Shown here one piece after another: positions 4,684 through 21,876 of a DNA stretch of 21,876 bases. Position 1 is the first letter of the stretch. Each line of letters opens with the position of its first letter. The notes beneath the pieces are model-generated. The model saw nothing but the letters and a program-made list of their open reading frames with translations. It was not told the DNA's origin and did no database searches. The stretch is from positions 1-21,876 of the IMG/VR virus record IMGVR_UViG_3300017971_000816; one strand, written 5' to 3'. Position numbers and translations under genes: made by a program. This DNA is from a virus.

Positions 4684-5076
4684 TTAAGTTGGTCTTGGTA
4701 CAACATAATAAACTGGAACAACTGTGATATCCTGTGGATTCGGGTGGTCTACAGGGAAACAGGTTTGAGTTCCAATAGGTATGTAATACCATGTGGTTCT
4801 ACTGGTAATGTCCTGATAATTTGGATGTGTGGATGGTATGTATGTGGTTATACCAGTAGGAACAGCATAGAAAATCGGGTTATCTGATATATCGTTGGGA
4901 TTTGGGTGGTCTTGTGGAAAATAAGTTGTTGTGCCAGTGGGAATAACATACCATTCGGTTCTCGATGTTATATCGGAACAATTCGGATGGTCTTCAGCAA
5001 AACAGGTTTGAGTTCCAACTGGAACACAGTAATACGTGAAGCTATCCGTAATGTCTTGTGTACTGGCATTACTCAT
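4684..5076 (-). CDS. 27-residue tandem-repeat protein (DHPN repeats), function unknown
   Basis: I do not recognise this 130-aa protein. Nearly all of it is a tandem repeat with an exact 27-residue period: H-P-N begins at residues 30, 57, 84 and 111. The unit reads roughly x-D-I-T-x-x-x-x-W/F-Y-x-[IV]-P-x-G-T-x-T-x-F-P-x-D-H-P-N-x. Copies alternate: units 1 and 3 carry D-I-T-S-R-T-x-W, while the others have D-I-[ST] followed by a Pro- or Phe-containing variant, so the higher-order period is 54. There is no signal peptide or membrane segment. The regular strand-turn pattern suggests a small beta-repeat structure. It is the last gene of the tail block, 11 bases after the BppU-N-like gene and just before the replication promoter, so a small virion or appendage protein is the best guess from position. 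Four cysteines sit in equivalent repeat positions. The leader contains TATAAATA about 12 bases before the ATG. Confidence 0.85.
   Translation of the reverse strand: MSNASTQDITDSFTYYCVPVGTQTCFAEDHPNCSDITSRTEWYVIPTGTTTYFPQDHPNPNDISDNPIFYAVPTGITTYIPSTHPNYQDITSRTTWYYIPIGTQTCFPVDHPNPQDITVVPVYYVVPRPT
4687..5058 (-). repeat. 81-bp coding tandem repeat (27 aa), about 4.5 copies
   Basis: Coding repeat within the 130-aa protein. The invariant H-P-N triplet recurs every 27 codons four times, and the D-I-T/S step recurs five times. A and B copy types alternate. The last copy is cut short after P-V-Y-Y-V-V-P. The copies are diverged at the DNA level, so this is an old duplication rather than a recent slippage array. 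Confidence 0.85.
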
Positions 5077-5087
5077 TTCGTTTTTAT

Positions 5088-5504
5088 TTATACCACAGTC
5101 GTCTTGGTTAGACTGTCACTGATTTGAATATTAATTAATTTTTCCGTGGGTAACGTGATTTTACCACAATTCCCTTCTCCAAGAAAATCGAGTTTAAATT
5201 CACCAAGATACCTACCCGCTTTACTGGTTTGAGGTAATTTGAATCTGTATTTCAATGTATAACGTTCTTCATCTGGTTGTGCTGCTCTATCGTTACTAAT
5301 CACAAGGTCAGCAGCAACATTGGCAATACGATATCTACCCGTATCGGCTTCCATCATGGAAAACGTGACCGCCACATTCTCCAGCATTTCCTCGGTAATA
5401 TCATATTGTTCCCTAAGATGTTGCGTTAATGGCAACTTTAACTCAGGCAAAGTGCTGTCCTTCTTAATAAAGAAGTTATTCATATGAAATGTACTGTAAT
5501 CCAT
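5088..5504 (-). CDS. BppU N-terminal-domain-like baseplate/appendage protein
   Basis: A 138-aa protein that resembles the N-terminal domain of the lactococcal baseplate upper protein BppU, a beta-sandwich used to attach receptor-binding proteins to a baseplate. Cues are the opening F-F-I-K-K-D-S-T-L-P-E-L-K-L-P-L (residues 11-26), the step Y-D-I-T-E-E-M-L-E-N-V-A-V-T-F-S-M-M (34-51), a late K-A-G-R-Y-L-G-E-F strand and a closing basic/aliphatic strand. BppU N-terminal domains are about this size, so the protein may be just this domain without a fused tip. The start ATG shares one base with the TAA stop of the membrane-protein gene (TAATG), which favours M1 over the internal Met at residue 8. 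The homology is by pattern, not by search. Confidence 0.55.
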   Translation of the reverse strand: MDYSTFHMNNFFIKKDSTLPELKLPLTQHLREQYDITEEMLENVAVTFSMMEADTGRYRIANVAADLVISNDRAAQPDEERYTLKYRFKLPQTSKAGRYLGEFKLDFLGEGNCGKITLPTEKLINIQISDSLTKTTVV

Positions 5505-5911
5505 TATCCTATTTCTTCATCGGCTTTGTCGCCAGCAATTATTCTTTCGGCTTCCATTAGCTTTTCACGGTCTGCACGTACTTGTTTAATTCGTTTCTTG
5601 GCTTTAGCACCGACTCCATCACCCAGTAAACCAAGCATAATGGCTTCGAAATACGTGAATTCGTGTCCAACGAATTCAACATAGAATCTGAAAAACACGT
5701 AAGTCGTGAGAAACGTAACAAGATATCTACGCCAGTTATCCTTGAACCAGAATCTCCATTTCCATTTTTTAGGGGTGTGAGTGCTTAATTTATCTCTTTC
5801 ACTGGCTTCATTTAATCCGTAGATAATATACCCAATAATGAAAAACCACGCAAACCCAAAAATCTGAATCCACGTATATGCTCCAAATATTACTTCAAGA
5901 ATCTCATTCAT
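5504..5911 (-). CDS. Small membrane protein with two hydrophobic helices; possible holin
   Basis: A 135-aa protein with a strongly hydrophobic segment at residues 17-33 (I-F-G-F-A-W-F-F-I-I-G-Y-I-I-Y-G-L) and a second at about 63-82 (Y-L-V-T-F-L-T-T-Y-V-F-F). Between them is a Trp/Lys-rich loop (K-K-W-K-W-R-F-W-F-K). A third, weakly hydrophobic Gly/Ala stretch at 87-103 is followed by a highly charged C-terminal tail (K-K-R-I-K-Q-V-R-A-D-R-E-K). Two helices plus a charged cytoplasmic tail in a phage late region fit a holin or other inner-membrane phage protein. No endolysin lies nearby in the window, so the lysis role is only a possibility. It begins 26 bases after the preceding gene, and a GTATTTATAA element lies in that gap. 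Confidence 0.7.
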   Translation of the reverse strand: MNEILEVIFGAYTWIQIFGFAWFFIIGYIIYGLNEASERDKLSTHTPKKWKWRFWFKDNWRRYLVTFLTTYVFFRFYVEFVGHEFTYFEAIMLGLLGDGVGAKAKKRIKQVRADREKLMEAERIIAGDKADEEIG

Positions 5912-5925
5912 CGTTTTCTGTTTTT

Positions 5926-5935
5926 TTATAAATAC
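5926..5935 (-). promoter_or_regulatory. GTATTTATAA element before the membrane-protein gene
   Basis: Read on the minus strand, GTATTTATAA starts 24 bases before the ATG at 5911 and two bases after the TAA stop of the 85-aa gene. Near-identical elements precede two other genes at 22-23 bases. It could be a phage-specific promoter or an mRNA processing or translation signal; which one cannot be decided from sequence. Confidence 0.35.
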
Positions 5936-5937
5936 TA

Positions 5938-6195
5938 TTATCTGTCTCGTTTTCCGTGAATCTTTTCTTTATTCGGTACGATTTTATTGAACTTACTCGT
6001 CATTTCAAAATCATAATTCCTGTCCATACGCATTTTATATGACTTGCCATTTGATGTGATGAAAATATGCTGGATTATCGGGTCGTAATTAAGTTCTTCA
6101 ATAACCATTGCATTTCCCTCATCATCATAAATCGTCATCCCAATCATAAGATTACGAAATAATATCTCCAAAAAATTTGTTTCCTGTTTTGCCAT
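5938..6195 (-). CDS. Small hypothetical protein, 85 aa
   Basis: I do not recognise it. The N-terminal 20 residues are moderately hydrophobic (F-L-E-I-L-F-R-N-L-M-I-G-M-T-I-Y). The middle reads as alternating beta strands (A-M-V-I-E-E-L, then I-I-Q-H-I-F-I-T-S-N-G-K-S-Y-K-M), and the C-terminus is lysine-rich and positively charged (P-N-K-E-K-I-H-G-K-R-D-R). It overlaps the 246-aa gene by one base (TAATG), which supports it as a real, coupled gene. No cysteine and no clear membrane helix. Confidence 0.7.
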   Translation of the reverse strand: MAKQETNFLEILFRNLMIGMTIYDDEGNAMVIEELNYDPIIQHIFITSNGKSYKMRMDRNYDFEMTSKFNKIVPNKEKIHGKRDR

Positions 6196-6935: not shown

Positions 6936-6949
6936 CTCATTTTATTTTA

Positions 6950-8203
6950 TTATGCGGTTTCACCAATTTTCTGTATTCTAATTGTTCCAAAATATATTGA
7001 TGCTGTCCCACCACCACATTGTCTAAACACAATTGAAGGTGTATATGAACCCGCAGTCAACTGATTATTTTGAGTCACATATGCCGTTGAAACCGCATTG
7101 GTGTCATTGGTTTTTAACAGATTACAGTATCCCACAACATTACCATTAACTAAGAAACACACAATAGCACAACGGTTTGAAGTATTATTACCATATATTG
7201 CATTGAATTCGTATTCGTAATAACCAGCAGGAAGACTCCATGTTTGTGTCAAATATGTCGCATTGGTTTGTGTTGTATTGGCTTGGATTGTTCTTTTATC
7301 TACATAACAATATACACAAGCCGTACCACCTGTATTACTAAGGGTTCTGATTTCCTTAGTCACGGGATTCCAAACCACGCTGTAATCACTAAGAGTACCA
7401 CCAGTATCTGCATTATCTAAATATGTGTTACCGCCTATTCTGGTATCTCCGCTCACATTTAACGTAGACGCAGCAGTTACAGCACCCGTAATTCTTGCTG
7501 TGCCTGTTGAACACAAACAAGTACTTGAACATATTGTTGGTGAACATACGCATGTGCTACCAAAAGTAATGGGAGAAACAACACATGTCCCACCGCAAAC
7601 CACAGGTGCTTGCATTCTTGTTGTTGCACAACTAATTGGTGATGTAATACATGTTGAACCCGTTATCTGGGGTGCACTGATACTGGTGCTGGCGTTTAAA
7701 ACAGGTGTTGTCATCAACACACTTGCAGCCAGTGATGAACCAGTTACCGCACCATTTGCCAATAAATTAGATGTGGTACATAACGTACCCGTCATGGTAT
7801 CACCAGACCTATAGACTCTGGTATTTATATCTGCTTGAGTGCTTGCACTATAAACATTGATTTCGGTCTTGTTGTAATAATTTGCTGGTAATGTCGTACC
7901 AGTAAAATTATCGAAATTATCTTTTGTCGTTGCGGTATAACCAGTAAAAGGCGCATATGTTAAAGCCGTGTCACCATCTGGTGGAGTGGTAGTATCTTCT
8001 AAATACGCATTGATTGTCGCATCGTCATTAAGTATAATCGTATCACCACTTTCTCTGTACAAATAAAGCGGTTGGGTTCTGGGAATTAAAAAATCAATCT
8101 GTATCTCTCCCGTATCTGGTGGTAAAGGAGCAAAACTACTATTGCTCCTATCCACCAAAGTATTGTTATAGAGTGTCGTATATAGAAAATATTCTAAAGC
8201 CAT
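6950..8203 (-). CDS. Tail fibre/appendage protein with cysteine-rich 11-residue repeat
   Basis: A 417-aa modular appendage protein. Residues 1-70 match the N-terminus of the next-upstream 930-aa protein (shared pattern I-P-x-x-Q-P-L-Y-L-x-R, then G-D-T, then D-A-x-I-N-A-Y-L), probably a common attachment domain. One copy of the F-T-G-T-T-L-P-A-N-Y-Y-N-K-T-E-I-N spacer lies near residues 97-113. Residues 172-237 are six consecutive 11-residue repeats with about ten cysteines in 50 residues. After a short linker (V-W-N-P-V-T-K-E-I-R-T-L-S), the last about 125 residues form a beta-rich domain with strand patterns like a C1q/TNF-type jelly-roll tip (W-S-L-P-A-G-Y-Y-E-Y-E-F). Cysteine is 16 of 417 overall. 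The likely role is receptor binding or a fibre segment at the virion tip, inferred from architecture. Confidence 0.82.
   Translation of the reverse strand: MALEYFLYTTLYNNTLVDRSNSSFAPLPPDTGEIQIDFLIPRTQPLYLYRESGDTIILNDDATINAYLEDTTTPPDGDTALTYAPFTGYTATTKDNFDNFTGTTLPANYYNKTEINVYSASTQADINTRVYRSGDTMTGTLCTTSNLLANGAVTGSSLAASVLMTTPVLNASTSISAPQITGSTCITSPISCATTRMQAPVVCGGTCVVSPITFGSTCVCSPTICSSTCLCSTGTARITGAVTAASTLNVSGDTRIGGNTYLDNADTGGTLSDYSVVWNPVTKEIRTLSNTGGTACVYCYVDKRTIQANTTQTNATYLTQTWSLPAGYYEYEFNAIYGNNTSNRCAIVCFLVNGNVVGYCNLLKTNDTNAVSTAYVTQNNQLTAGSYTPSIVFRQCGGGTASIYFGTIRIQKIGETA
7493..7690 (-). repeat. 33-bp coding repeat: six 11-residue Cys/Ser/Thr/Pro units
   Basis: Six back-to-back units of exactly 11 residues (172-237 of the 417-aa protein). 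The consensus is [ST]-T-x-[IVLM]-x-[SA]-P-x-[IV]-x-[GAS]. Units 1 to 5 keep the Pro at position 7; unit 6 is degenerate. Examples are S-T-S-I-S-A-P-Q-I-T-G, S-T-C-I-T-S-P-I-S-C-A and S-T-C-V-C-S-P-T-I-C-S. Cysteine occupies the outward x positions. An 11-residue strand-turn repeat fits a triple-stranded beta-spiral or prism fibre shaft. Confidence 0.88.
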
Positions 8204-8216
8204 TCATTCTATTTTA

Positions 8217-11009
8217 TTATTGCAGCGTCTGTTTCTTTTTAATTAAAATACTTGCATTCGGAGATGTTAATGTAGCACCCGGGTCTCCAGTTCTAAATGC
8301 AGCCAATGTTAATATATCATCTTGTGCAAGTGTCAATATAACAGGTGGTAATGCAATATTTGCAGCAATACCATTATCTGTTGCGAGTCCCGCAGCAGCC
8401 GTAACATCGAGAACCGTGCTATTATTCAATATAACATTCGCACCAATACCGATATTCTTTCTATTTGTTGTTGAATTATATGGTATGTTGTAACTCAATT
8501 CATAATCACCAGCCACTTGAATCACGATATCACTTGTACCCGAAAGCACGTAATTGCTTCCCGACACCTGTACGGTATCCCAATCAATTGCTGTTGCAGC
8601 AACAGTATTGATATCAGTTCCACCAGTATGAATCAAGAAGAACTCATTTGGTGATGTACTTGCCGTGTAACCCGTAAAGACTGCGGTATCAAGTTTATTT
8701 GCGGTGGTTGCTGTTAAACCAGTAATATCGGCTTCAATATTATCGAGTCTGGTATCGGTTGCACCTGTATAAGCATTGATTTCGGTCTTGTTATAGTAAT
8801 TCGCAGGTAATGTCGTACCCGTAAATGTATTAAAGACCGTTTCATCGAGTTTCGTACCGATAAGCGTTGCTGTTGTACCAGTATAGGCATTGATTTCGGT
8901 CTTGTTGTAGTAATTCGCTGGTAATGTTGTACCTGTAAACGTATTGAAAACACTGGTATCAAGTTTACTTCCGAGTGCCGTGGCAAGCGTTCCACTGTTT
9001 ACATCAACATTAAATGTATTACCTGTCCACGCAATACTGTTTCCTGCGAGACTACTACCGTCAACATTAATCGTATTTCCACTGATGTCAATACCCACAC
9101 CACCAATAAGACCAGCAGCAGGATTACTGAATAACGTGAAATCGAGGTCATCTGTGCCAACCGTAATTGGGTCGGGAGTAATAAGTACCCAAATCGTATT
9201 GAATTGCGTATCACCGCTAATAACTGGAACGAGGTCACCCTGTACGACTTCACCACTTGGGTCACCATTGAAGTCCGCAGCACGATAGAAAGTTGTGCTG
9301 CTTCCCGAATACACCCAGATACCGTTCTGGCTGGCATCAGTTTGGTCTTTAACCAGAATTCTATCACCGTCCTGTACGGTATAACCATCTACCGTTCCAC
9401 CAAAAGTACCGCCAGTAAGGTCGATATTCGCTGTTGTCGCAGCAATAACACCCGCTTTAGGTGTGAGTCCTTGTGCTATACTATCAGCATATCTCTTGGT
9501 GATAAGTGATTCATTGGTGAAACTTGCACTGTAATCGGCAGCGTACTGCATACCGACCTTAGTTGTTCTACTATCGGTAATAAGCATGCTTGTCTCACTG
9601 ATTTCCAATTTTGTTTGTTCTGTGCCAACATTATTATTACCGATTATCGCAACAGTACCTGCGTCACTTTCGATATTGATTCCACCAACGCCATCGGTAT
9701 CAATAATATCGATACCGTTAACGCCTTGTAACTTAATTGTTTGTGTATTAACGGTGAAATCGTGTGTTGTTCCAGATATTAATGTGTCTCTGGTTAATCC
9801 ACCACCGAGTTCAACGACCTGACCATTTGTAACCAAACCGTTGCTTGCACCAGTAAGTGTACCACCTGTAAGTGCTTCAAGAGCATCGATTCTGCTATCA
9901 GTTATACCAGTGTAGCTGTTTATCTCGGTTTTATTGTAATAGTTAGCTGGAAGCGTAGTTCCAGTGAATGTATTGAAATCCGTAGTATCTAATTTGGCAT
10001 TAATTGCACTTTCCGTAGTTGCGGTATAACTATTGATTTCGGTCTTGTTATAGTAATTAGCTGGAAGCGTAGTTCCAGTAAATGTGTTGAAATCGGTTTC
10101 ATCTAATTTGGCATCGAGAGCATTTTGTAAGTCGGTTTGGTTACTAAGTGTACCTGTAATTTCACCCCAAGCAACACTTGAAGTACCGCCTGTTTGTCCG
10201 CTAATAACGAGATTATCGGCATCTCCGCTAAGACTTAAACCACCAAGAACGCTGATAGACTTGATAGTTGCATTTCTTCCACTAACACCACCCAACGTAG
10301 TGCCAGTTCCCAAATTGGTAACTCCTGTAAGAGCAGCGTCTATAACGGGTTGTGTAGTACCAGTGTAGCTATTAAAAGCACTGGTTTCCAGTTTATTGTT
10401 AAGTGCGGTTTGAGTCGTACCCGTGTAGCTATTAAAGGCAGTTACATCCAATTTGGCGTTTAAGGCATTTTGTAGGTCGGTTTGATTGCTAAGTGTACCT
10501 GTAATATCGCCCCATGCAACGGTCGTTCCCGTTGGCACTGCTGATGAGATTATGATTTGAATAACGCCAGATGTGCTACCCGTTGTGATGTTAGTTCCAC
10601 CACTACCAGTGAAATTGTATTTTGTATCGGCAGTTAACGAGGAAATAGCGAATCCGCTATCCTGCACATTACCGTCATCTGTAAATATTGCGACATTATC
10701 CTCAGTTGCACCACTTACCGTATCTATTTTTTGTGACGTGATTCCCGTCACAAAACCAACAGTCGCATCGTCCTGCGGTTCAGGTGGCGGTGCAATGCTA
10801 TCAAGATATGCGTTTATGTTTGCGTCTGTATTAGGAACAACTGTTGTGTCACCCGTAACTCTCCACAAATACAGAGGTTGTATTTCGGGAATTACGAAAT
10901 CCGAAAATAATCCAGCTTCATTAACTCCTGAATCATTCGTTGCACTTTCTCTCACAATCGTCTCAGCGAACGTTGTGCCTGTGCTGTAAATTAACCATCT
11001 AAATGCCAT
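8217..11009 (-). CDS. Large modular tail fibre protein, 930 aa, cysteine-free
   Basis: Long phage fibre with visible modules. Residues 1-75 are an N-terminal domain shared with the 417-aa protein (F-V-I-P-E-I-Q-P-L-Y-L-W-R; D-A-N-I-N-A-Y-L-D). Two copies of V-A-W-G-[DE]-I-T-G-T-L-S-N-Q-T-D-L-Q-N-A-L follow. Two pairs of the 38-residue N-Y-Y-N-K-T-E-I-N spacer repeat are present. Residues about 512-628 match a domain common in phage fibres (G-L-T-P-K-A-G-V-I-A-A-T-T-A-N-I-D-L, then D-G-D-R-I-L-V-K-D-Q-T, then Q-N-G-I-W-V-Y). Residues about 790-930 are a jelly-roll-like tip homologous to that of the 356-aa protein (A-I-D-W, R-K-N-I-G, A-A-F-R-T-G). I find no cysteine in the whole protein, in sharp contrast to the 814- and 1044-aa fibres. 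It is spaced 19 bases from the 356-aa gene with no Shine-Dalgarno. Confidence 0.9.
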   Translation of the reverse strand: MAFRWLIYSTGTTFAETIVRESATNDSGVNEAGLFSDFVIPEIQPLYLWRVTGDTTVVPNTDANINAYLDSIAPPPEPQDDATVGFVTGITSQKIDTVSGATEDNVAIFTDDGNVQDSGFAISSLTADTKYNFTGSGGTNITTGSTSGVIQIIISSAVPTGTTVAWGDITGTLSNQTDLQNALNAKLDVTAFNSYTGTTQTALNNKLETSAFNSYTGTTQPVIDAALTGVTNLGTGTTLGGVSGRNATIKSISVLGGLSLSGDADNLVISGQTGGTSSVAWGEITGTLSNQTDLQNALDAKLDETDFNTFTGTTLPANYYNKTEINSYTATTESAINAKLDTTDFNTFTGTTLPANYYNKTEINSYTGITDSRIDALEALTGGTLTGASNGLVTNGQVVELGGGLTRDTLISGTTHDFTVNTQTIKLQGVNGIDIIDTDGVGGINIESDAGTVAIIGNNNVGTEQTKLEISETSMLITDSRTTKVGMQYAADYSASFTNESLITKRYADSIAQGLTPKAGVIAATTANIDLTGGTFGGTVDGYTVQDGDRILVKDQTDASQNGIWVYSGSSTTFYRAADFNGDPSGEVVQGDLVPVISGDTQFNTIWVLITPDPITVGTDDLDFTLFSNPAAGLIGGVGIDISGNTINVDGSSLAGNSIAWTGNTFNVDVNSGTLATALGSKLDTSVFNTFTGTTLPANYYNKTEINAYTGTTATLIGTKLDETVFNTFTGTTLPANYYNKTEINAYTGATDTRLDNIEADITGLTATTANKLDTAVFTGYTASTSPNEFFLIHTGGTDINTVAATAIDWDTVQVSGSNYVLSGTSDIVIQVAGDYELSYNIPYNSTTNRKNIGIGANVILNNSTVLDVTAAAGLATDNGIAANIALPPVILTLAQDDILTLAAFRTGDPGATLTSPNASILIKKKQTLQ
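8775..8939 (-). repeat. 38-residue spacer repeat, two copies (C-terminal pair)
   Basis: Two copies of F-T-G-T-T-L-P-A-N-Y-Y-N-K-T-E-I-N, encoded at 8889-8939 and 8775-8825, exactly 114 bases apart. Each is followed by A-Y-T-G and then a K-L-D linker. The same unit occurs as another pair at 9918-10082 and once in the 417-aa protein. Such units are typical linkers in modular phage fibres and are natural sites for recombination between fibre genes. Confidence 0.9.
9918..10082 (-). repeat. 38-residue spacer repeat, two copies (N-terminal pair)
   Basis: Copies of F-T-G-T-T-L-P-A-N-Y-Y-N-K-T-E-I-N at 10032-10082 and 9918-9968, again exactly 114 bases apart. They are nearly identical in protein to the C-terminal pair about 1.1 kb away, with some synonymous DNA differences. 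Confidence 0.9.
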
Positions 11010-11028
11010 TTTAGTTTGTTTTTATATA

Positions 11029-12099
11029 TTATAATTTTTTTTCTGCTTTTATCCATGAACCCCCCGCTACGGTGTTAACCGTTCCAGCATATCCAATTCT
11101 GAACGCAATGAGTTCAATATAATCTCCACCTTCTAACGATACCAGACTCTCTGGCATCGTGTTAGTACTATTGTCGTTTTGGTAATTAGAACTAAAACTT
11201 GTAGTACTCATTGGAGTGATATCGGTATCACCATTTTTTCTGATAAGTGTGCCGATATTCTTATCACTCCTACTATTTGCTTTGACATTCAGGACATATG
11301 AAATTCCATAAATACCATTGCTTTGTATATAAATACGAGAACCACCTGTATAATTCAAAGCAGTTCCCGAAAAAGCCTGTGTTGTCCAATCAATTGTGGT
11401 TGGCGTTATTGTGTTGACATTTGTTCCACCGCTATTATCATAGAGTTGAAGCGCAGAATTACTGGTAATGCCCGTTACACTTATGACGTTACCCACAATA
11501 GAAATATTGTCACCAGCAACCAATTGGTCTTGCTTGGCGTTGATAAGCGATAACGTGGTTGCCGTGTATCCCGTAAATCTGGTTTCAGTATCTGCGGTAT
11601 ATGATGTGAAGTCAGCTATTGTGAGATACGTAGCGGGTGCTGTTGTACCCGTGAAATCCTGAAACGCACTTAAATTGACTTTGGTGTCGAGGTCTGCGAG
11701 ATATGCAATTGTGCCATCGCTATCCTGAACCGTTAATTGTCTGAAGACATTTGTGCTGACACCCGATACCACGAATTCCAGACCTTTGGTATTGTCACTG
11801 GCATCGTAAACCTGAAAATTATCTGACCTAAAATAATCTGGGGTCTCTCCCAGAAATCGCCAGACACTTCCAGTGCTAATATAGAACCCCGAAGGTTTTC
11901 TATTCAGAACATAATCACCACTCCCGTTTCTAACAACATAGATTTGACCCGTGGCGACACTTCCTGCCGATGGCAGGTCTCCGTAAACATTGACTTGAGG
12001 ATATGTTGAACCTGACGTTGGTGTGCCACCCGACCCCGTAAAATCTCCGCTAAATAAATATATATCGCCTCTTAGTAAATCTACTGTAAAAGTTGCCAT
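11029..12099 (-). CDS. Tail fibre/appendage protein with jelly-roll-like C-terminal tip, 356 aa, cysteine-free
   Basis: First gene after the terminator at 12157-12182. The N-terminal part (residues about 30-100: Y-G-D-L-P-S-A-G-S-V-A-T-G-Q-I-Y-V-V, then G-F-Y-I-S-T-G-S-V-W-R-F-L-G) resembles a phage-fibre domain that usually precedes a variable shaft. A short spacer region carries F-T-G-T-T-A-P-A-T-Y-L, a degenerate form of the NYYNKTEIN spacer, plus a K-Q-D-Q-L-V-A-G-D-N-I-S-I segment. Residues about 217-356 align closely with the tip of the 930-aa protein (G-G-T-x-[IV]-N-T, T-x-I-D-W, K-N-I-G, A-F-R-x-G), consistent with a C1q/TNF-like trimeric tip. No cysteine is present. It is likely an alternative or companion fibre of the 930-aa protein. 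A TATTTATGA element lies 23 bases before the start. Confidence 0.85.
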   Translation of the reverse strand: MATFTVDLLRGDIYLFSGDFTGSGGTPTSGSTYPQVNVYGDLPSAGSVATGQIYVVRNGSGDYVLNRKPSGFYISTGSVWRFLGETPDYFRSDNFQVYDASDNTKGLEFVVSGVSTNVFRQLTVQDSDGTIAYLADLDTKVNLSAFQDFTGTTAPATYLTIADFTSYTADTETRFTGYTATTLSLINAKQDQLVAGDNISIVGNVISVTGITSNSALQLYDNSGGTNVNTITPTTIDWTTQAFSGTALNYTGGSRIYIQSNGIYGISYVLNVKANSRSDKNIGTLIRKNGDTDITPMSTTSFSSNYQNDNSTNTMPESLVSLEGGDYIELIAFRIGYAGTVNTVAGGSWIKAEKKL

Positions 12100-12112
12100 T
12101 AATTAGACTTTT

Positions 12113-12122: not shown

Positions 12123-12156
12123 TAAGGAGATACAAAACAACATTAGGTTTCTGGAA

Positions 12157-12182: not shown

Positions 12183-12203
12183 GATATTTTTATATTATTG
12201 TCT

Positions 12204-12497: not shown

Positions 12498-14942
12498 TTA
12501 CGAATTTATTTGTGCTTCCAACGCTTTGATTCTTACTTCTTGCTCCTTGACAATGTTCCATAATACTGGAACTAATTGGTCATATTCAACCTTTTTATAA
12601 TCAACATCATTGATTATAACACCACCTTTAACCGCTAACGGTAATACGGTTTCGATTTCTTGCGCAATAAATACGTATTCACAACAACCAGCACAATTAG
12701 ATAATTCATTGAACTCAGCACTATATCCACAGATACTATCTAAATAAGAAACGGCACATGTTAGTGGTTCAACACAACATTTTAATCTGCTGTCAGAAGC
12801 AGGTGTTCCTGTTGTTAACCTACCATTTGCATCAATATAAACCACACAGGTTTCAGATGTTTTACCTGTTAATAGTGGAAATGCGAGTTGTCCCGTACAA
12901 TAAACTTCAAATGCATTACATCTATTCGCAGCACTTGTACCGACACCAATTTCAGCAATTGTAGTGGCACAACCAATATTATACATACCACTTGCATGAG
13001 AACTACGTCCACTGGCAATTGTACATTCGCCTTCGGCATGTGAATATAAACCCAATGCGCAGGTAACAGCACCCTCTGCATGGGAATTAGCACCACATGA
13101 ATGTGTGAAATATCCTTCTGCATGTGAGTGGTCGCCACATGCTTTTGTATTCCAACCTTCAGAATGACCATAAAAACCAATCGCACAAGTTGTTCTGCCT
13201 TGAGCAAATGAACAATCACCACATGCTTCTGATGTACCACCAAACGCTGCCGAAGCCAAACCATATGCTTTTGCGCCCACACCTGCTGCAAGTGAATAAT
13301 TACCGTGCACTGTAAGAAATTGACCAACCCCTAATGACGAAGTACCAGTAAAGCTAATTGGAGTATCGCCAATCAACACTGAATTTGTTGTCGTGCAGCC
13401 GTTATCGGTTACATCTTGTAGGGTTGCAGACCCACCAGTTCCACCACTAATAACACCAGTACTTAGATTTCCACTGGCATCAATATATATTCCACAGGTT
13501 TCTGATGATTTGGCGGGTAAATTAGCCATTATTATCCTACCATCAGCAGCACCACCACTACCACAACCCGCCCTTAAACAAAGATTACCACCAGTACCTG
13601 ACGTTGAATCACCAGCGCAAACAAATAAGCAACCACCTAAACCAGTTGATGAGTTTTGACCAGCCTTAATACAAATATCGCAAGCAGCAGTTGCATCAGC
13701 AGAACCAGCAGCAAGAATTGCAACGTCCTTATGACCTGTAATTGTTCCCCCATTAGCGATTGAAATATAATTATTAAATCCCGAATCGGTAACCGTAAGA
13801 CTTGAGACTTGAGCAATCATTGAACCAGAAAGACTAAGAGCAATACATTCACCAGTACCGTTATCAACACACCAAGGATTATTTGTTGCACCAGTATATG
13901 CCCTCATAAACACACCACCATCCCAAGTAAAACACCCATCATTTGCAACACCAACATTATTTGTTGTTGTTGTTGGAGTTATCACACCTGTGCCTTGTGT
14001 CCAAAGAGATGTACTTCCACCGCTAATAACACCAGTGCTCAGATTTCCACTACCATCAATATAGATTCCGCAGGTTTCACTGGACTTAGCAGGTAAATTG
14101 GGTATTTGAACTCTACCATTTGTTCCACCATTTGAACAACCACCACATAGAATCAGATTTCCACCATCATTACTTGCAGCAAAACCACCGCCCCCACAGA
14201 GAGTAAGGTTTTTACCGCTAACGCCAATACCAGTTCCTTGGTTTCCTGAAATAGCGAAATCATTACAACTAATAACCGTTAATCCACCAGTAGCATTTCC
14301 ATCTAAACCCAAAGCATAGGTCGGTCCAACCAATTGAACCCCAAATCCCCCGCAAAGAATGAGGTTTTGCGTTCCCTTACTTTTAATAAATAAACCGATA
14401 TTTGTTTGTGTTCCAGAGGGTTGGATACCCATTATTGTGTCATCGTTATCACATGACCCGATATTAAGAAATCTGGTTGTTGACCCTCTCCCGGGGTCTA
14501 AATACAACTGACCATCTAAACATGTACTGCCCTCAACACACCCACCTCTTATAATTAATGATTGTCCCAGTGTTGATGTGGTGTTGGGTGCTTGAATTTT
14601 TTGAATTGTTGTATTACCTGTATCACCAACAACGACCATGTTATTAAGCAAACTTATTTTTCCTGTTTCATCAGCAATTGCACTGTCTTCAACACCATTA
14701 CCACCAGAATTAAACTTCGCCACACGGTCAGGAGTTCCAGATATTGAACCACCCCCACCTGTTGCTGCGGAGAAATATATGTTGTTGTCGTCACAAGTAA
14801 TAGATATGGTACTACCTGTAGGAGATAATGTCTTGAATTGCAAGATATTTCCCACGGTCTTGCCTTTATATACGTCAATACCAGTACCGACATTCTGACC
14901 TTCTGTGGCATTACCCACCAAATTAATATTTGACCTACTCAT
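12498..14942 (-). CDS. Tail fibre/spike with YadA-head-like repeats and C-terminal S74 chaperone, 814 aa, cysteine-rich
   Basis: Trimeric-type adhesin. The N-terminus (N-V-G-T-G-I-D-V-Y-K-G-K, then L-Q-F-K-T-L) matches a domain common at the start of phage tail proteins. A beta-rich middle follows, with two long repeats ending in N-L-P-A-K-S-S-E-T-C-G-I-Y-I-D and a third shorter one. Residues 548-652 are 14-residue S-H-A-E-G repeats like the YadA/Hep_Hag head of trimeric autotransporters. The C-terminal 99 residues are a peptidase S74 intramolecular chaperone: S-D-S-R-L-K with predicted catalytic Ser716 and Lys721, I-A-Q-E-I-E, then a coiled coil. In this family the chaperone guides trimer folding and then cuts itself off. 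Cysteine is 39 of 814 (4.8 %) by my count, including CC pairs in the chaperone. It starts 3 bases after the YkgJ-like gene. Confidence 0.9.
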   Translation of the reverse strand: MSRSNINLVGNATEGQNVGTGIDVYKGKTVGNILQFKTLSPTGSTISITCDDNNIYFSAATGGGGSISGTPDRVAKFNSGGNGVEDSAIADETGKISLLNNMVVVGDTGNTTIQKIQAPNTTSTLGQSLIIRGGCVEGSTCLDGQLYLDPGRGSTTRFLNIGSCDNDDTIMGIQPSGTQTNIGLFIKSKGTQNLILCGGFGVQLVGPTYALGLDGNATGGLTVISCNDFAISGNQGTGIGVSGKNLTLCGGGGFAASNDGGNLILCGGCSNGGTNGRVQIPNLPAKSSETCGIYIDGSGNLSTGVISGGSTSLWTQGTGVITPTTTTNNVGVANDGCFTWDGGVFMRAYTGATNNPWCVDNGTGECIALSLSGSMIAQVSSLTVTDSGFNNYISIANGGTITGHKDVAILAAGSADATAACDICIKAGQNSSTGLGGCLFVCAGDSTSGTGGNLCLRAGCGSGGAADGRIIMANLPAKSSETCGIYIDASGNLSTGVISGGTGGSATLQDVTDNGCTTTNSVLIGDTPISFTGTSSLGVGQFLTVHGNYSLAAGVGAKAYGLASAAFGGTSEACGDCSFAQGRTTCAIGFYGHSEGWNTKACGDHSHAEGYFTHSCGANSHAEGAVTCALGLYSHAEGECTIASGRSSHASGMYNIGCATTIAEIGVGTSAANRCNAFEVYCTGQLAFPLLTGKTSETCVVYIDANGRLTTGTPASDSRLKCCVEPLTCAVSYLDSICGYSAEFNELSNCAGCCEYVFIAQEIETVLPLAVKGGVIINDVDYKKVEYDQLVPVLWNIVKEQEVRIKALEAQINS
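12987..13301 (-). repeat. 14-residue YadA-head-like coding repeats
   Basis: Residues 548-652 of the 814-aa fibre contain repeats with a period of 14: S-H-A-E-G-x-x-T-x-x-x-G-x-x in its clearest copies. Such repeats form left-handed parallel beta-rolls in trimeric adhesin heads. Cysteine appears repeatedly at the variable positions (for example T-K-A-C-G, T-H-S-C-G, V-T-C-A-L). Confidence 0.85.
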
Positions 14943-14945
14943 TTT

Positions 14946-15182
14946 CTATTTTTTTAATATCTTGTTTTTTAATTTTCTTCTTTCCAAACACCACTCACCC
15001 CCTCTTTCATAATCCCGACACGCCTGTGGTCTGTTTTCATATATTTTACAACCTCTACCTTTCTCATGATGAAGACAGAAACCGTCTTCTTTAATTAACG
15101 CTTCTTTGTTTCCCGCTATAGTTTCGGGGTCAAACCAACAACACAATCCACATTCCATACATTCTTTTTCAGTTATTTTCAT
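14946..15182 (-). CDS. YkgJ-family cysteine-cluster (zinc- or iron-chelating) protein
   Basis: A 78-aa protein with the YkgJ/UPF0153 signature C-x2-C-G-x-C-C (Cys8, 11, 14, 15), then Cys36, a C-K-I-Y-x-x-R-P-x-x-C-R motif (Cys45 to Cys55) and Cys65. Eight cysteines are arranged to bind metal, probably iron-sulfur or zinc. The family is widespread in bacteria and seen in phages; its biochemical role is mostly undefined, though the domain also occurs in the flagellin N-methylase FliB. I prefer the start at 15182, which gives M-K-I-T-E-K-E-C and leaves 8 bases after the previous stop; a longer start at 15221 would overlap the upstream gene by 31 bases. It lies between two cysteine-rich fibre genes, which invites but does not prove a role in their metal loading or modification. 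Confidence 0.85.
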   Translation of the reverse strand: MKITEKECMECGLCCWFDPETIAGNKEALIKEDGFCLHHEKGRGCKIYENRPQACRDYERGGEWCLERRKLKNKILKK

Positions 15183-15190
15183 AATTTCAA

Positions 15191-15643
15191 TTATTGTCCG
15201 TCTGGAATTACTATGACCCAATCATCTGTTATTGATGGATTTGATGTTAAGCAATATCTTATAGTTGCGCTTCTGGTAGAAAAGGGATTAATTAAACCCG
15301 TAAGACCCGCAGTAATTTTTTGACTACCAGAACCCGAACTGGTAAATGATTGTACTATACTATCGGGGTCAGAAATCTTACTCGCTGTCCATGCACCACT
15401 GGCAGTTAAGGTATTAATTGCAATTTGTCCAGAAGAATTTGTTGTTGGTGATAAAGAAACAGCAATGCTTCCCACACCAGCAAAACCATAGAATGCTCTT
15501 ATACAACCGTTAACCCCAGCAGTCGTACTTAATGAAAGCAAACTCTTATTACCAGTAATATTACCATCAACACAATACGCAATACTGCGGTCATTTCCTG
15601 CTGCATTTTTTATACTTAAACTACCACTTGTTGGAAGTGCCAT
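15191..15643 (-). CDS. Small virion structural protein with Ig-like C-terminal part, 150 aa
   Basis: The N-terminus (M-A-L-P-T-S-G-S-L-S-I-K-N-A-A-G and, at 48-54, I-R-A-F-Y-G-F) matches a pattern I know from many phage structural proteins: L-P-x-S-G-x-I-S-x with an ending S-x-F-Y-G. Residues 57-150 are a Ser/Thr-rich beta domain resembling an immunoglobulin-like fold (S-I-A-V-S-L-S-P-T, A-S-G-A-W-T-A-S, W-V-I-V-I-P-D). Three cysteines are present. It lies 13 bases downstream of the 111-aa gene, in the fibre cluster, and is probably a virion decoration or appendage protein. The N-terminal family match is by memory of the pattern, not by search. Confidence 0.72.
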   Translation of the reverse strand: MALPTSGSLSIKNAAGNDRSIAYCVDGNITGNKSLLSLSTTAGVNGCIRAFYGFAGVGSIAVSLSPTTNSSGQIAINTLTASGAWTASKISDPDSIVQSFTSSGSGSQKITAGLTGLINPFSTRSATIRYCLTSNPSITDDWVIVIPDGQ

Positions 15644-15656
15644 TTACTATCAATTA

Positions 15657-15992
15657 TTATTCATCAATTATTTTTAATTCAAAATATACTCCACCAATAA
15701 AATTATTCAGCCAATTCCCGACTTCCTGATATAATTGAAGCGGAGTTAACGAATAGAACTCTTCTTCAGAGAAATTGATTTCAAAATCATTGGGTAGAAT
15801 GTCTTCCGACATCCATATCTGCGTATATCCGCTCTCAAACAATTCTCGGTTTCTATAGAGTCTTGGGGTAACTCTCACCACAGTACTTCCAGCCTGAAAT
15901 TCGGCATCCATTTTCAGTGTAGCACCGCTTGCAACAATACTCCCATCGCTTGCCGTTAAACCAGATATCGTCATTAAATCTATTTTTGCCAT
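15657..15992 (-). CDS. Hypothetical virion-region protein, 111 aa
   Basis: No family recognised. The first half is beta-like (I-S-G-L-T-A-S-D-G-S-I-V-A-S-G-A-T-L-K-M-D-A-E-F). The second half is acidic and more helical (F-S-E-E-E-F-Y-S-L-T-P-L-Q-L-Y-Q-E-V), ending in a strand G-G-V-Y-F-E-L-K-I-I-D-E. The pattern of a body of strands plus a helix near the C-terminus suggests a small adaptor. It has no cysteine, unlike most neighbours. It follows the S74 fibre with only 3 bases between stop and start. Fibre-associated small genes in this place can be assembly factors; that is a guess. Confidence 0.72.
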   Translation of the reverse strand: MAKIDLMTISGLTASDGSIVASGATLKMDAEFQAGSTVVRVTPRLYRNRELFESGYTQIWMSEDILPNDFEINFSEEEFYSLTPLQLYQEVGNWLNNFIGGVYFELKIIDE

Positions 15993-15995
15993 ATC

Positions 15996-18900
15996 TTATG
16001 TATTTAATTTTTCTCTTAATGCATTTATTTGTGTTTGCAGACACTGGTTCTGCTGTTTTAATTCTTTAATGGCTTCAACAAATAACCCAGCGAATTTATC
16101 GTATTTCAAACCATAGGTTTTGTCTTCAATTCCATATTTTTCTTTATGATGTTCACTTGCTTCACCCGTGCTTACAAGTCTTGGTTCTACTTTTTCAACA
16201 TCTTGTGCAATAAGACCCATATCGGGAGTACCGTCCTCACAAAATTCATAACAAACACCACAAAGGCAATCAACTGTTGATAATGCGCTTGAAATCGGTA
16301 CGATGTTCTTTTTCATTCTACAATCTGAAGTCGCAACCCAATCCACAGCACAACCACAACCAGATTGTGCACAAAAACGATACCCTGTAGATGTGGTGCA
16401 TATTCTTACCGCAAACGCACACTGAACATAGTCAATACATGCATAAGTACCACGAAAATAATAACCACATATAATACTAAATGAACTTGGTGCGCATATA
16501 TCGTCTCCCACAATTAAATCATCAGTTACACAAGAAATTCCTGTTGTGAGAGTTCCATATGTTGTGGTTTCAAGTCTTTTTGTGGTATCGTGATAGATTT
16601 CAACACAACCATCTGTAGTACCCGCACCACTACAAATCGTAACATTTCCACCATTACCAGTAGTGAAACCAGCGTACCCGGCACCACCGCAAATCTGTGC
16701 ATCACCACCAGCACCACCAGTATATGCATTTCCACCAGCACCACCACGAATAATCGCACGTCCACCTACTCCACCAGTACCAGTACCGCTTGCAGCACCA
16801 CCATCACCACCACGAACAAATACATAGCAACCAGCACCACCCGTACCACCAGCAGTATGACAACCACCGTCACCACCTAAAAGGCGTAGGCATCCACCAT
16901 AACCGGGCGTTGAATCACTATCACCCTTACCCGCAAAAATATTCAAAGTATCGCCATTTCCACCATCAGTGGCTTCAGCAACACAAATCGTTCTTTCCGC
17001 ACCTTGTGAGAAAATAATATCGCCATTTGTCATAGTCAACGGACCGTACATATCCACTGCACCATTTGGACAGAATTCATGTTTGTAACCACCGCCCACA
17101 TAAATGCAAATTGGTGCGGAAGTGTTTTCAATTGAGCCGAACGTCATCAAGTCAGAACCAGATGCCATTCCCATCATTCTGTTAAGGCTTCCACTGCAAT
17201 CATAAGCAGTATAATAACTCCCCGCTTGAATTCTAACCGATTGAAGAGCGGAAGAACAACTCTCAATTACGCCATCAAATCGTGCAGTGCTTTTCGTATA
17301 GGACGGACCATCAGAATAAACCGCCCAACAACCCAATTCAAGTGTTGATGTCCAGTTACCAGCAGTAGTACCCACAACACCAGCACCGTCTTGTGTTCCA
17401 CATAGGAAACCAATTACACCATAATTATATCTCGGAGTCTTACCACCAGCATAACCCACAACACCGTGAGAACGACCAGACCCCGAACTTCCATTGTATG
17501 ATGCATTCGCAATAAGACCCCAATTTCCACCATCTGTTGTACCACCTCTATTAAGGACATAGGCAGCAACATTTGTTGTTGTACTACCAGTATTTCCATA
17601 TACTATTAAACCATAACAATTACTATGGGTTTCGATTTTAGCGACAGCACCACTTGTGGGATACCATTCCGTACCGCCTTCAGTAACTCTAAAACAATCG
17701 GTTTTCACCGCAGCACTTGGAGTACATAAGCAGATATCGGCAGTGTCAATGGTTGCTAATGTTAATGTGCCAGTACCCCTATGACAAATCTTAGAATCGG
17801 CATTTGGACCTGTGTTATCTCTAATCATCCTAAAACCATAGTCTGTGTATGTATCATCACCGACAAAATCAATATATGTGTAACCAGTACCAGTTCTACC
17901 CTGTCCGAGTTGAATGTATCTTGTTTGGTCAGCAGTAGCACATAAATTCATGCTGCCCTGAATGCTTAAATTCTCACTCGAATAAGTTAAATTCGGATTC
18001 GCACATAAATCACCACTGGCATTTATATATGTTGTCAGGGCATTATCTGTTGTTCCGCTTACGGCAACCCCACCCCCCGAAGGAGTTTCCCATGTGGCAT
18101 TACCGCTTGCATCTGAAGTCAGAACACAACCAGCAGCAGCACCTGTTGTTAATTGGAATGTTTTTGTTGTTGTTTTACCTGTAACAGTTAAGTCACCATT
18201 TATTATTGTATTAGTACCAAGAGTGGCTAACGTTGGTGTAAATACAGATTGGTTTGATGCAGAAAGACAACCACTTGGTCTAATATATACTGCACCTGCT
18301 CCTGTTGTCCCTAAAAATAGCGATGTGTCTGTAGAGTAGAAGTAAGAGTCTGCTCCCACACACCCATTAACGGTTAATATACTACCATTAAATGTTAAAC
18401 CACTGCGTGCACAAATAGTATTGGCATCCACGTAGGTTGTGAGTCCACCGACAGTTGAACCGCTCATGCTAAGTCCACCACCAGTTTGACCCGTTACCCA
18501 TCCAGCATGGGGAATAGAAAGACAACTGATATTTGCGCTGTAATCCGCAAGATAACGTGCGGGTTGATTACCTTTACCACAGAATATCATGTTATCGTAT
18601 TCCATAGCAATACAGGCGTTGTCGTTATCCAATAAAATGACTTCGGCACAACTGCTATTTGGATTTTCTGACCAGATATAGGTTTCACCACTGGTCATCG
18701 TGATGAAACTCGTGGTGTTACAGATATCCGCACTGAATCCCTGATTCGAAACATAAAGTCCATCAGCATTGGAGTCATGAATGCAGAATATATTATTTCC
18801 GAGACCCACACATGTGTTTCCCGTTAATGTCCCGCCAAGAGCAATATCCGCTCCTGCTGTACATAAACCGTTTGTGCCACCAGTAATCGTTCCACCACCA

Positions 18901-19130: not shown

Positions 19131-19145
19131 TTTTTATCTGTTTTT

Positions 19146-19997
19146 TTAATATGTTCTAAAGCAAATCGGTAAAGCATCCGTACTCGCTGAACCGCTCATA
19201 TATACCTTATAATTTACGCTTGACCAACACCCTTGTCCCGATGATATTGAAATCGAACATTCGTCTGGATATTTATCTGTTGGTAAAACATTAATATCAC
19301 CACAGTTCGGTGCTGCACCACTAATCCATTTGGTTCTCGAAGCATATGTCGCTGGCATTGCAAACCACGTCCATTGACCCACATTATTGAAATCAACAGT
19401 TACTGAACTACCAACAGCAGCAATTACCTTAGTTCCACCAGTTACGAGGTCATTGGTAACTGCTGGTCTACTACCACAGGTCTCAACACCCCAATAATAT
19501 GGATAGATACTGCATTCACTATTATTTCTACTAAAGCTGTCATCTTGTGTACTGCATCCCGTGATTTGCCATGTGTGTGTGGTTGGCGTGCTGTCTGTTA
19601 TAGTACAAATGCCCAGACTCTGAGGACTATCACCCGCATCAAAACCAGTACCAACTACTGCACCTGCATCACTTCCCGCTATTTTACGAATTCCCACACT
19701 ACCGCTTGCAACATTCGCACCCGTTGTCGTGCTCCAACTAAATGTCTTGTTTCCACTTAGTACACACCCAACCTCAAATGGCTCATCATCCAGTGCCACA
19801 TTAAATGCACTGAAAGTCGGCACAATATATGGTGCGAAAGCATCCTGAATAATACATGCAAGTGTTTTTCCCGTTAAAACATACCCGGGCGTTACACCAC
19901 CCACCTCACAAGTAGCAGGAGAATTAAGTGTATACGTACTACCCGTACTTTCAGCGAAACCCGCCTCATTAATAAATATTGATTTCTTAGTTGCCAT
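19146..19997 (-). CDS. Phage appendage protein with Ig-like domain, 283 aa, cysteine-rich
   Basis: The N-terminus places a T-P-G-Y-V-L-T-G-K-T-L segment before P-T-F-S-A-F-N-V-A-L. Next comes an Ig-like pattern, F-E-V-G-C-V-L-S-G-N-K-T-F-S-W-S (residues 74-89), like the V-E-V-G-x-x-x-x-G-x-x-T-F-x-W unit I know from gut and aquatic phage structural proteins. Later motifs are Y-P-Y-Y-W-G-V (about 165-171), V-D-F-N-N-V-G-Q-W-T-W-F-A-M-P and a C-terminal beta domain. Eleven cysteines (3.9 %) lie in the C-terminal two thirds, at places where the family usually has polar residues. It probably forms part of a tail appendage or decorates it. The gene sits between the 93-aa gene (25 bases upstream) and the 1044-aa S74 fibre (15 bases downstream). 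Confidence 0.78.
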   Translation of the reverse strand: MATKKSIFINEAGFAESTGSTYTLNSPATCEVGGVTPGYVLTGKTLACIIQDAFAPYIVPTFSAFNVALDDEPFEVGCVLSGNKTFSWSTTTGANVASGSVGIRKIAGSDAGAVVGTGFDAGDSPQSLGICTITDSTPTTHTWQITGCSTQDDSFSRNNSECSIYPYYWGVETCGSRPAVTNDLVTGGTKVIAAVGSSVTVDFNNVGQWTWFAMPATYASRTKWISGAAPNCGDINVLPTDKYPDECSISISSGQGCWSSVNYKVYMSGSASTDALPICFRTY

Positions 19998-20022
19998 TTA
20001 TTCTGTTTTTTATTTTTATTTA

Positions 20023-20304: not shown

Positions 20305-20309
20305 ATCAT

Positions 20310-20319
20310 TTATAAATAG
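20310..20319 (-). promoter_or_regulatory. CTATTTATAA element before the 93-aa gene
   Basis: A variant (C for G at the first base) of the GTATTTATRA element, read on the minus strand, starting 15 bases before the ATG at 20304. The shorter distance to the start makes this the weakest of the four. Confidence 0.25.
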
Positions 20320-20339
20320 TTTCGTTATTCAATTATATT

Positions 20340-21876
20340 TTAAAGACTAATACCAATTATGCAATATCTTAAAACTGTCCCACCCGGGCATTTTGCGCAT
20401 TCAGTCCACCATACCTTTTCCCTGCTTGTCCAAGCCGTATTAGTTCCCAAGCCATCATAATCAGTACCAGCAGCAAGATTATTGACTTGTTCCTCGGTTA
20501 AATCCCATTCACTTCCACTCCACGTACCCAAATCACCTAATTGATATGTACCAGTTGGAGTGTCTTGAATATTTTGAAAATTAATATTCGAATAATTTCT
20601 GCTCCAATTTTTTCTATTTTCAAATAAGTAATTCGCAAACTCATTACTACCACATAAATCAGTACTATAAACACGAAATTGATATATGTTATTGGCAAGC
20701 GTAACTCCAGATAAATGACCCGTTATACAGGTATCATAAAGTTCAATCCAATAAGCACATGTACTGAAATCAAAATCGGTTTCGATATTGCTGCTAATAC
20801 AATTACCTCCCGCTCTTAGCGTAGCGGGTTCAGCAATACTTAATGCGCCCCTTAGATGAGGCATCCCCTGACCATAAAAATAATTTACGTTATCAAGATT
20901 CCAATTGGTTGTATCCGCACTAAATCCTGAGTTAAATCCTAAAACAACACGACTCAATGATGTAGTCCCAGTAAGAAATCCACTATAATCCCCAGAAAGA
21001 TTCGAATATTGGAGACCAAAACAAGTTAAATTACTTATATCGAGCTTATCAAAATTTGTGGCTGTAATATTACCACAGAAATTAGGACAACCACCAAATT
21101 GTAGGCATGTGACATTTGTCGTATCGAAATTCTGGAAATCTCCACTAACTTCCCCTATACCGTATATGTTTATGTTACGAATATCTGGTGCGTATGTTGA
21201 CGATAAATTCAGAGTTATACCCGAATTACCCCCAATACATAAATTTGTGGGTTCGTATGGATAGGTGCTGAGTTCTCCAGTTAAATTATTATCATGAAGA
21301 TATATTGATGTTGAACCCGAACCCATTGTTATGCCAGAAATATTGCCAGTAAAATTTGAACGAACCAAATTAACTTGATTTAAATTAGGAAGATTTAATT
21401 GAGTGAGGTCACCACATAATTGACTATCATATAAACCGAAACTTGTTACACCTGACGGAATGTTCCATGTTGTGACATCACCAGATAATGCACACATCCT
21501 ATAGCCACATATTTGTTGTATGTTCGTAGCATTCGAGAAATCACCATACATACTGGTAATGTGCTCCGTACCAAAAAGACATAGATACTGCAATGTGTCT
21601 GGATACCCATCAAAAAATACGTCTCCACTTATACAGTTGCTACCATACCCGAAATTAGCGAGATAAAGTCGTTCCATTTGAGTACCACTAATATCCCAAT
21701 TACTTAAATCACCCCCCATTGGGGTGTTAGTATATACTTGAAAAAATGTCATACCAGTGTTAAATGTCCAACCACTCATGCTTCCGCTTCTCGTGGAATT
21801 CGCCCAATACGCATTTAAATAAGTTAAATTAGATATATCTAATGTGGTGGCATTTATGGTCTGATTATATGTTCCA
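20340..21876 (-). CDS. Leucine-rich-repeat-like tail/adhesin protein (partial, start outside window)
   Basis: The frame is open to the right edge: before the Met at 21779 it still reads L-D-I-S-N-L-T-Y-L-N-A-Y-W-A, in the same repeat style, so that Met is internal and the true start lies beyond the window. At least 511 residues are repeats of about 20-25 residues with short strands followed by x-L-[TSC]-G-[DNEH]-[LIVF], for example L-Y-D-S-Q-L-C-G-D-L-T-Q-L and L-H-D-N-N-L-T-G-E-L. This resembles BspA-like or plant-type LRR solenoids, which bind proteins or glycans. The C-terminal 80 residues change character (W-D-L-T-E-E-Q-V-N-N-L, then W-T-S-R-E-K-V-W-W-T-E-C). Cysteine is 17 in the 479 residues after the internal Met. 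The likely role is receptor binding or host-surface interaction, from the fibre context and fold. Confidence 0.82.
   Translation of the reverse strand, partial: GTYNQTINATTLDISNLTYLNAYWANSTRSGSMSGWTFNTGMTFFQVYTNTPMGGDLSNWDISGTQMERLYLANFGYGSNCISGDVFFDGYPDTLQYLCLFGTEHITSMYGDFSNATNIQQICGYRMCALSGDVTTWNIPSGVTSFGLYDSQLCGDLTQLNLPNLNQVNLVRSNFTGNISGITMGSGSTSIYLHDNNLTGELSTYPYEPTNLCIGGNSGITLNLSSTYAPDIRNINIYGIGEVSGDFQNFDTTNVTCLQFGGCPNFCGNITATNFDKLDISNLTCFGLQYSNLSGDYSGFLTGTTSLSRVVLGFNSGFSADTTNWNLDNVNYFYGQGMPHLRGALSIAEPATLRAGGNCISSNIETDFDFSTCAYWIELYDTCITGHLSGVTLANNIYQFRVYSTDLCGSNEFANYLFENRKNWSRNYSNINFQNIQDTPTGTYQLGDLGTWSGSEWDLTEEQVNNLAAGTDYDGLGTNTAWTSREKVWWTECAKCPGGTVLRYCIIGISL

Follow-up and report, generated by a model that had tools for sequence, protein, structure and literature searches.

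The 21,876-nucleotide (21.9-kb) viral record IMGVR_UViG_3300017971_000816 of IMG/VR, the whole of which is hereafter called the window, carries a cluster of phage fiber genes in which products crowded with cysteine and products free of it are encoded side by side. The cysteine-rich fiber set, in the window and its relatives, has about 4–11% cysteine, which is some 25 times the normal level. Extracellular virion proteins normally avoid cysteine, and no earlier description of such fibers was found in the open papers that we searched. The most likely reading, which we hold tentatively and rate at a little short of an even chance, is that the distal modules of one fiber set have been selected for dense cysteine that would act as a bulk, multivalent thiol surface; its main rival is a relaxation of the counter-selection against extracellular cysteine.

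An initial annotation of the window, made by eye, had counted 39 cysteines in a protein of 814 amino acids (aa), 47 in one of 1044 aa, 11 in one of 283 aa (3.9%), 16 in one of 417 aa (3.8%), and 17 in 479 aa of a leucine-rich repeat (LRR)-like protein, and none in the adjacent fibers of 930 and 356 aa. All of these counts are exact; the LRR-like frame is open at the window end and comes to 511 aa there, still with 17 cysteines. A profile scan of viral contigs for S74 chaperone domains supplied 72 usable control fibers with a median of 0.08%, a mean of 0.17%, and a maximum of 0.77% cysteine, which agrees with the premise that this residue is usually rare in phage fibers and rules out an ordinary trait of S74 fibers. 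The two S74-type fibers of the window (4.5 and 4.8%) are exceptional, lying far outside this control range. Relative to the 0.17% baseline, the binomial chance of the five cysteine-rich proteins is between 1e-49 and 1e-12 per protein, whereas a protein of 930 aa would lack cysteine altogether with a probability of 9e-5 even if its rate were 1%, and the heterogeneity between proteins is likewise strong (chi2 P = 1.4e-10).

From the family B DNA polymerase of the window and a conserved 138-aa neighbor gene we arrived at a lineage whose viral contigs in many cases measure 80–366 kb, and over which the trait is widespread. Open reading frames were called mechanically, and the fiber class was defined by composition (Ser, Thr, Asn, and Gly at least 33.5% together, Lys below 5%). 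A syntenic relative, G001, whose polymerase is 68% identical, has fibers of 925 aa with 46 cysteines, 249 aa with 15, 202 aa with 15, and 385 aa with 15, adjoining cysteine-free proteins of 377 and 441 aa; in other relatives there are proteins with 60 cysteines in 800 aa, 33 in 479, 17 in 205, and 23 in 205 (11.2%), and those recovered with the neighbor gene, some on contigs of 200–366 kb, have fibers with up to 7.5% cysteine. In three large genomes fiber-like proteins contain 2.2–3.3% cysteine as against 0.96–1.36% in all others. The 1.0–1.4% cysteine of the remaining proteome and the absence of cysteine from the sibling fibers weaken the case for a general amino-acid bias of the host or environment. 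Fibers above 2.5% cysteine occur at 20 of the 28 nearer, non-redundant loci (neighbor gene at least 63% identical), a count for which the flanks often reach just the cysteine-free fiber set, and none of six more distant loci has a fiber above 1.35%; domains homologous to the 283-aa protein show the same gradient, with 2–6% cysteine in near and 0.4–0.5% in distant relatives. Among the matches listed from GenBank phages, the 1044-aa protein was matched only in its C-terminal S74 part, and no match to the 417-aa protein was found in GenBank phages. By the initial annotation's own reckoning, its reading would fall if homologs in related phages had this density as an ordinary family trait; the density is such a trait inside the jumbo-phage lineage, but none like it was found in phages outside.

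The hosts of the lineage are probably Bacteroidota. Shine-Dalgarno-like sequences precede 21 of the 886 starts in five relatives (about 15 in shuffles), and in these genomes a promoter motif (TTTG/TAnnTTTG) occurs 12 times as against 1.3 expected (3 antisense); the lack of Shine-Dalgarno sites together with promoters of the Bacteroidota type suggests such a host. The lineage marker gene was not found in bacterial genomes. As separate observations on these phages, a tRNA with the anticodon CTA (amber) is encoded by the jumbo phage G020 (L212, 1380–1453), suggesting read-through or recoding of TAG, and fiber-like proteins at L089, 1024–6676, start with apparent Bacteroidota signal peptides (MKKILMLFCFLVFTSSLFSQ...), which are unusual in phage fibers, such that these proteins may be secreted or host-derived.

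Cysteine is a property of modules rather than of whole proteins, with the N-terminal anchors and the 930-aa family being without it. The 417-aa fiber has no cysteine in residues 1–139, which it has in common with cysteine-free relatives (53% identity to the 441-aa fiber of G001), and all 16 in residues 140–417; similarly, an 1867-aa fiber of G001 has nearly all its cysteines in the distal part, with the proximal part nearly free of them. Five homologs of the 930-aa family contain 3 cysteines in about 4,900 aa, all in the 1053-aa member from G001 (at 375, 389, and 404), within a stretch that is missing from the protein of the window; residues 278–447 of this member resemble aa 69–218 of the cysteine-rich 1044-aa protein. 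The view that cysteine is distributed all-or-none stands for the large fibers of the window, but across the lineage it gives way to a per-protein continuum from 0 to 8%, because long fibers combine cysteine-free and cysteine-rich modules. That the two fiber sets differ, as the initial annotation had argued, is borne out by the 930-aa family, which is free of cysteine in five homologs apart from the inserted module of one. This modularity is also what would be expected if the cysteine-rich modules had been imported by recombination from another pool of cysteine-rich surface proteins and cysteine had no role in the phage, the G001 insertion being a case in point. We give this alternative little credence: the density of 4–5% persists between homologs that are just 25–45% identical, which requires maintenance, and no cysteine-rich donor came to light outside the lineage, either among GenBank phages or in two motif scans, of which a strict DNA scan for the CVCSP repeat gave one match, at an unrelated locus, and the second gave contigs of which ten are fragments, with lineage membership uncheckable for most of these.

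The enrichment arises at the level of the protein. A comparison of 42 cysteine-rich with 36 cysteine-poor fiber genes of the lineage shows that the triplets TGT and TGC (TGY) make up 4.54 versus 0.14% of the reading frame, an approximately 30-fold difference, and are equally frequent in the other two frames (0.82 versus 0.78% and 8.07 versus 7.85%). Enrichment confined to the reading frame indicates selection on the protein and rules out a DNA-level or mutational cause; at 4.5%, the cysteine share is also higher than base composition by itself would predict (3.1%). The cysteine-rich fibers are poorer in Asp (3.5 versus 5.8%), Glu (1.6 versus 3.0%), Thr, and Val, and in alignments cysteine does replace Ser, Thr, Asn, and Asp, as had been claimed, but not these alone, since it also takes positions of Lys, Ala, and Gly. 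In alignments, many polar residues stand opposite TGY columns, which fall at Ser-, Thr-, or Asn-like positions, and one could hence imagine that in these late genes TGT and TGC are not read as cysteine, by way of a modified or phage-encoded tRNA, and that the residues are in fact similar to Ser, Thr, or Asn. We reject such a reassignment as scarcely credible: the alignment enrichment of Cys with Ser is 1.0- to 1.4-fold, compared to 2.6- to 4.9-fold for Ser with itself, and that of Cys with Thr or Asn is below 1; no tRNA with a Cys anticodon was found in approximately 980 kb of relatives; and CxxC motifs are used normally in the same genomes, e.g., in zinc-finger-like proteins.

The S74-type fibers resemble the S74-chaperoned trimeric fibers typified by endosialidase and T5 pb1 in having a C-terminal Peptidase_S74 domain with an SD..K signature behind a modular, beta-rich fiber, and differ from them in cysteine content, at about 0.17% in other S74 fibers and 4.5–5% in the present ones, chaperone included. 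The domain of the 1044-aa protein (PF13884) scores 36–42 bits, above the curated cut-off of 22 bits; the 814-aa protein scores 14.8 bits, below that cut-off, and its C-terminus matches tail-fiber PHROGs. Both retain the cleavage signature (SDCRMKK and SDSRLK), whose S, D, and K are invariant in a six-sequence alignment. The enrichment extends into these domains as had been noted (6 of 110 residues, 5.5%, and 7 of 99, 7.1%).

Upstream of its S74-like domain, at aa 533–658, the 814-aa fiber has nine consecutive 14-residue repeats of the GxNSVAIGAxSxAx type, as in the left-handed parallel beta-roll heads of YadA and BpaC. Of the hallmarks of the YadA-type beta-roll (14-residue repeats in which position 8 is invariably Gly and position 6 Ala), Gly8 is present in all nine and position 6 is Ala or Gly in eight and Ser in one; the region is similar to BpaC 7O23 (phmmer E 5.4e-6). 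In BpaC, position 7 lies at the threefold axis and the surface positions bear solvent-facing charges (PMC9543794). The difference from YadA and BpaC is that the variable positions of the 814-aa repeats hold many cysteines, at repeat positions 3, 10, 12, and 14, with none at 4–8 and thus none at the axial position 7. The tail spike of Flavobacterium phage immuto (QQO92087.1) has a beta-roll in common with the 814-aa fiber (34–38% identity over 230–300 aa), but no cysteine in its 1053 aa; the cysteines of the window there face Ser, Gly, Ala, Thr, Asn, or charged residues. In fibers of two relatives, L085 (800 aa, 45 layers) and L092 (689 aa, 36 layers), nearly the entire length is made up of 13-residue SVAMAGG-type repeats, which we interpret from their sequence as a shortened variant of the YadA beta-roll; their 60 and 43 cysteines, respectively, are confined to a few variable columns, and adjacent layers share a cysteine column 10 times as against 9.5 in shuffled layers in the first and 8 as against 9.5 in the second. 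Both the beta-roll register and the homolog alignments suggest that the cysteines occupy variable, surface-like positions, as the initial annotation had proposed. Exposure and trimer geometry were judged from this register and from homology; structure prediction was of low confidence, with a predicted local distance difference test score (pLDDT) of 44 for the 283-aa protein with nine sequences and a mean of 30 for the beta-roll alone from a single sequence.

The cysteines are scattered and unpaired. In comparison to local-shuffle expectation, the cysteine-rich fibers are depleted in CC (0.44, z -4.6) and in CxxC (0.68, z -2.8), the latter being the spacing of metal sites, with a slight excess of CxC (1.24, z 1.7), and the number of cysteines is even in just 19 of 43 proteins. 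In cysteine-rich homolog pairs of 25–60% identity, 31–38% of the cysteines align with cysteine, a self-enrichment of about sevenfold that is like that of Gln, Asp, or Tyr, as against 22.6-fold for Cys in BLOSUM62; a ranking of Cys among the least conserved residues came from pooling cysteine-rich with cysteine-poor pairs. These data bear on the possibility that the cysteines form site-specific disulfides or metal sites, as a trimer-axis or interlayer ladder, or a redox trigger of infection. A precedent is the Agrobacterium phage Milano, whose contractile tail is cross-linked by disulfides and must be reduced before it can contract (PMC10811340), and the CxC excess and the recurrence of cysteines at repeat periods, though other residues recur likewise, point the same way. 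Nonetheless, we regard this as improbable, as the motif depletion, the turnover of cysteine positions between homologs, and the beta-roll placement, which appears to avoid core and axis with interlayer stacking at chance, leave site-specific pairing, CxxC metal sites, and a trimer-axis ladder unsupported; the metal binding and trimer-axis cross-linking offered by the initial annotation thus find no support. The likeness to Milano lies in cysteine-enriched structural proteins, with covalently linked tail parts and a possible redox step of infection on the Milano side; its structural proteins have 2.1% cysteine as against averages of 0.7–0.9% in A511 and T4 (PMC10811340). In the lineage, however, the enrichment lies in the fibers (about 1% in other proteins) and is at least twice as high, and whereas the cysteines of Milano form defined inter-subunit pairs, the key sheath pair being conserved in its clade, no comparable conserved pairing was found in the fibers of the lineage.

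Scattered, unpaired, and moderately conserved cysteines at a maintained density favor a bulk thiol property over defined disulfides, metal sites, or a ladder. We propose that selection would act to keep cysteine dense at positions that vary and for the most part face the solvent, with the density kept and the positions left free. A trimer of the 1044-aa protein, if it is trimeric, would present approximately 140 thiols (47 x 3), which could make many interchangeable weak or covalent contacts, either as disulfides between chains or neighboring fibers or as bonds to the host envelope, of the thiol-disulfide or the soft-metal kind, a redundancy under which no single cysteine would matter. On this proposal, the thiols would be exposed on the mature trimeric fibers and chemically active. 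A bolder version, which we consider doubtful, is that these are 'thiol-coated' adhesion fibers with a selected, position-tolerant layer of exposed cysteines bonding the host envelope, particles, or neighboring fibers, either covalently or by way of soft metals.

Several points count against the thiol-surface proposal. S74 domains are cut off in studied fibers, and yet those of the window are as cysteine-rich as the rest; a function of the mature fiber does not predict this, which counts against a purely mature-surface function, although the objection falls if these fibers retain the domain. A phage-encoded thiol oxidase or reductase partner was considered and dropped, with thioredoxin present in 8 of 17 records without relation to the cysteine trait and glutaredoxin absent from 14 records; a search for Erv/Alr was silent, as were its controls. 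Moreover, the exposure of the cysteines is deduced from repeat register and homology. The main rival posits no dedicated function: a reducing host or habitat (e.g., anoxic or sulfidic) would lift the counter-selection against extracellular cysteine, which as a convenient small beta-sheet residue could rise to or above its codon expectation, with the cysteine-free set avoiding it for its own reasons or being of another origin. Such a relaxation explains why the cysteines are conserved like ordinary polar residues and show no pairing, and why the S74 domains are just as dense in them; 4.5% is not far above the compositional expectation, and the cysteine contents of fibers and other proteins are weakly correlated over 30 loci (rho 0.40, P 0.03). 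On the other hand, it sits poorly with neighboring fibers and anchors that are nearly cysteine-free (0 of 930, 356, and 139 residues), with the avoidance of cysteine by the 930-aa family in all five relatives, and with proteins of 7.5–11% cysteine, well above neutral. We accordingly judge it unlikely, and retain the thiol surface as the preferred reading.

All coding in the window is on the minus strand (Table 1). The polymerase and an SNF2-type helicase lie at one end, followed by small conserved genes and then by the fiber cluster, which extends to the other end. The distal part of the 417-aa fiber consists of repeats of about 10 residues (e.g., GSTCVCSPTICSSTCLCS), and the middle part of the 930-aa fiber matches PHROGs of phage head-decoration and tail-fiber proteins.

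Table 1. Features of the window discussed in the text.
Feature	Positions	Strand
Family B DNA polymerase, truncated by the window edge; marker of the lineage	1..2817	-
138-aa conserved neighbor gene; probe for finding the lineage	5088..5504	-
417-aa fiber, distal part rich in Cys, aa 140-417 (16 Cys, 5.8%)	6950..7786	-
417-aa fiber, Cys-free N-terminal anchor, aa 1-139	7787..8203	-
930-aa Cys-free fiber	8217..11009	-
356-aa Cys-free fiber; 58% identity to Cys-free 377-aa protein of G001	11029..12099	-
814-aa fiber (39 Cys, 4.8%)	12498..14942	-
814-aa fiber, S74-like C-terminal domain with SD..K signature (7 Cys in 99 aa)	12498..12797	-
814-aa fiber, YadA/BpaC-like 14-residue beta-roll repeats, aa 533-658	12969..13346	-
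150-aa small fiber-associated protein (3 Cys); G001 homolog with 15 Cys in 202 aa	15191..15643	-
111-aa Cys-free protein between Cys-rich fibers; 56% in G001	15657..15992	-
1044-aa fiber (47 Cys, 4.5%); G001 homolog with 46 Cys in 925 aa	15996..19130	-
1044-aa fiber, Peptidase_S74 chaperone domain with SD..K signature (6 Cys in 110 aa)	15996..16328	-
283-aa fiber protein (11 Cys)	19146..19997	-
LRR-like protein (17 Cys), runs off window end	20340..21875	-

Three further loci of the window are of separate interest. A 130-aa protein (4684–5076) is built of repeats of about 24 residues (QDITSRTTWYYIPIGTQTCFPVDHPN and similar), with 4 cysteines and no lysine; it is kept in G002 (80%) and G003 (43%) and has no family match. 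Between fiber genes, a 91-aa open frame (14946–15221) with 8 cysteines (CxxCGxCC...), a TTG start, and a slight overlap with the next gene resembles a small zinc or iron-cluster protein. The SNF2-type helicase (2807–4624, 605 aa) is without insertion, whereas those of relatives have intein-like insertions of approximately 330–350 aa in G002 (L028), G004 (L029), and G001 (L023); the inserts of G002 and G004 lie at the DRLHRIGQ motif, beginning with Cys and ending in HN before C, and that of G001 lies in the Walker A region and ends in THN before T.

A lineage that fills one fiber set with cysteine and leaves its sibling set free amounts to a natural experiment on surface thiols, with the two cysteine-free families as built-in controls and the trait itself marking fiber modules that move between genes. 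If the thiols do not act, the fibers show the extent to which composition can drift once counter-selection is lifted. If they do, phages would have a new means of holding cells or stabilizing fibers, and thiol-coated fibers, if real, would represent a principle of adhesion or cross-linking that derives from amino-acid density rather than from a defined binding site.

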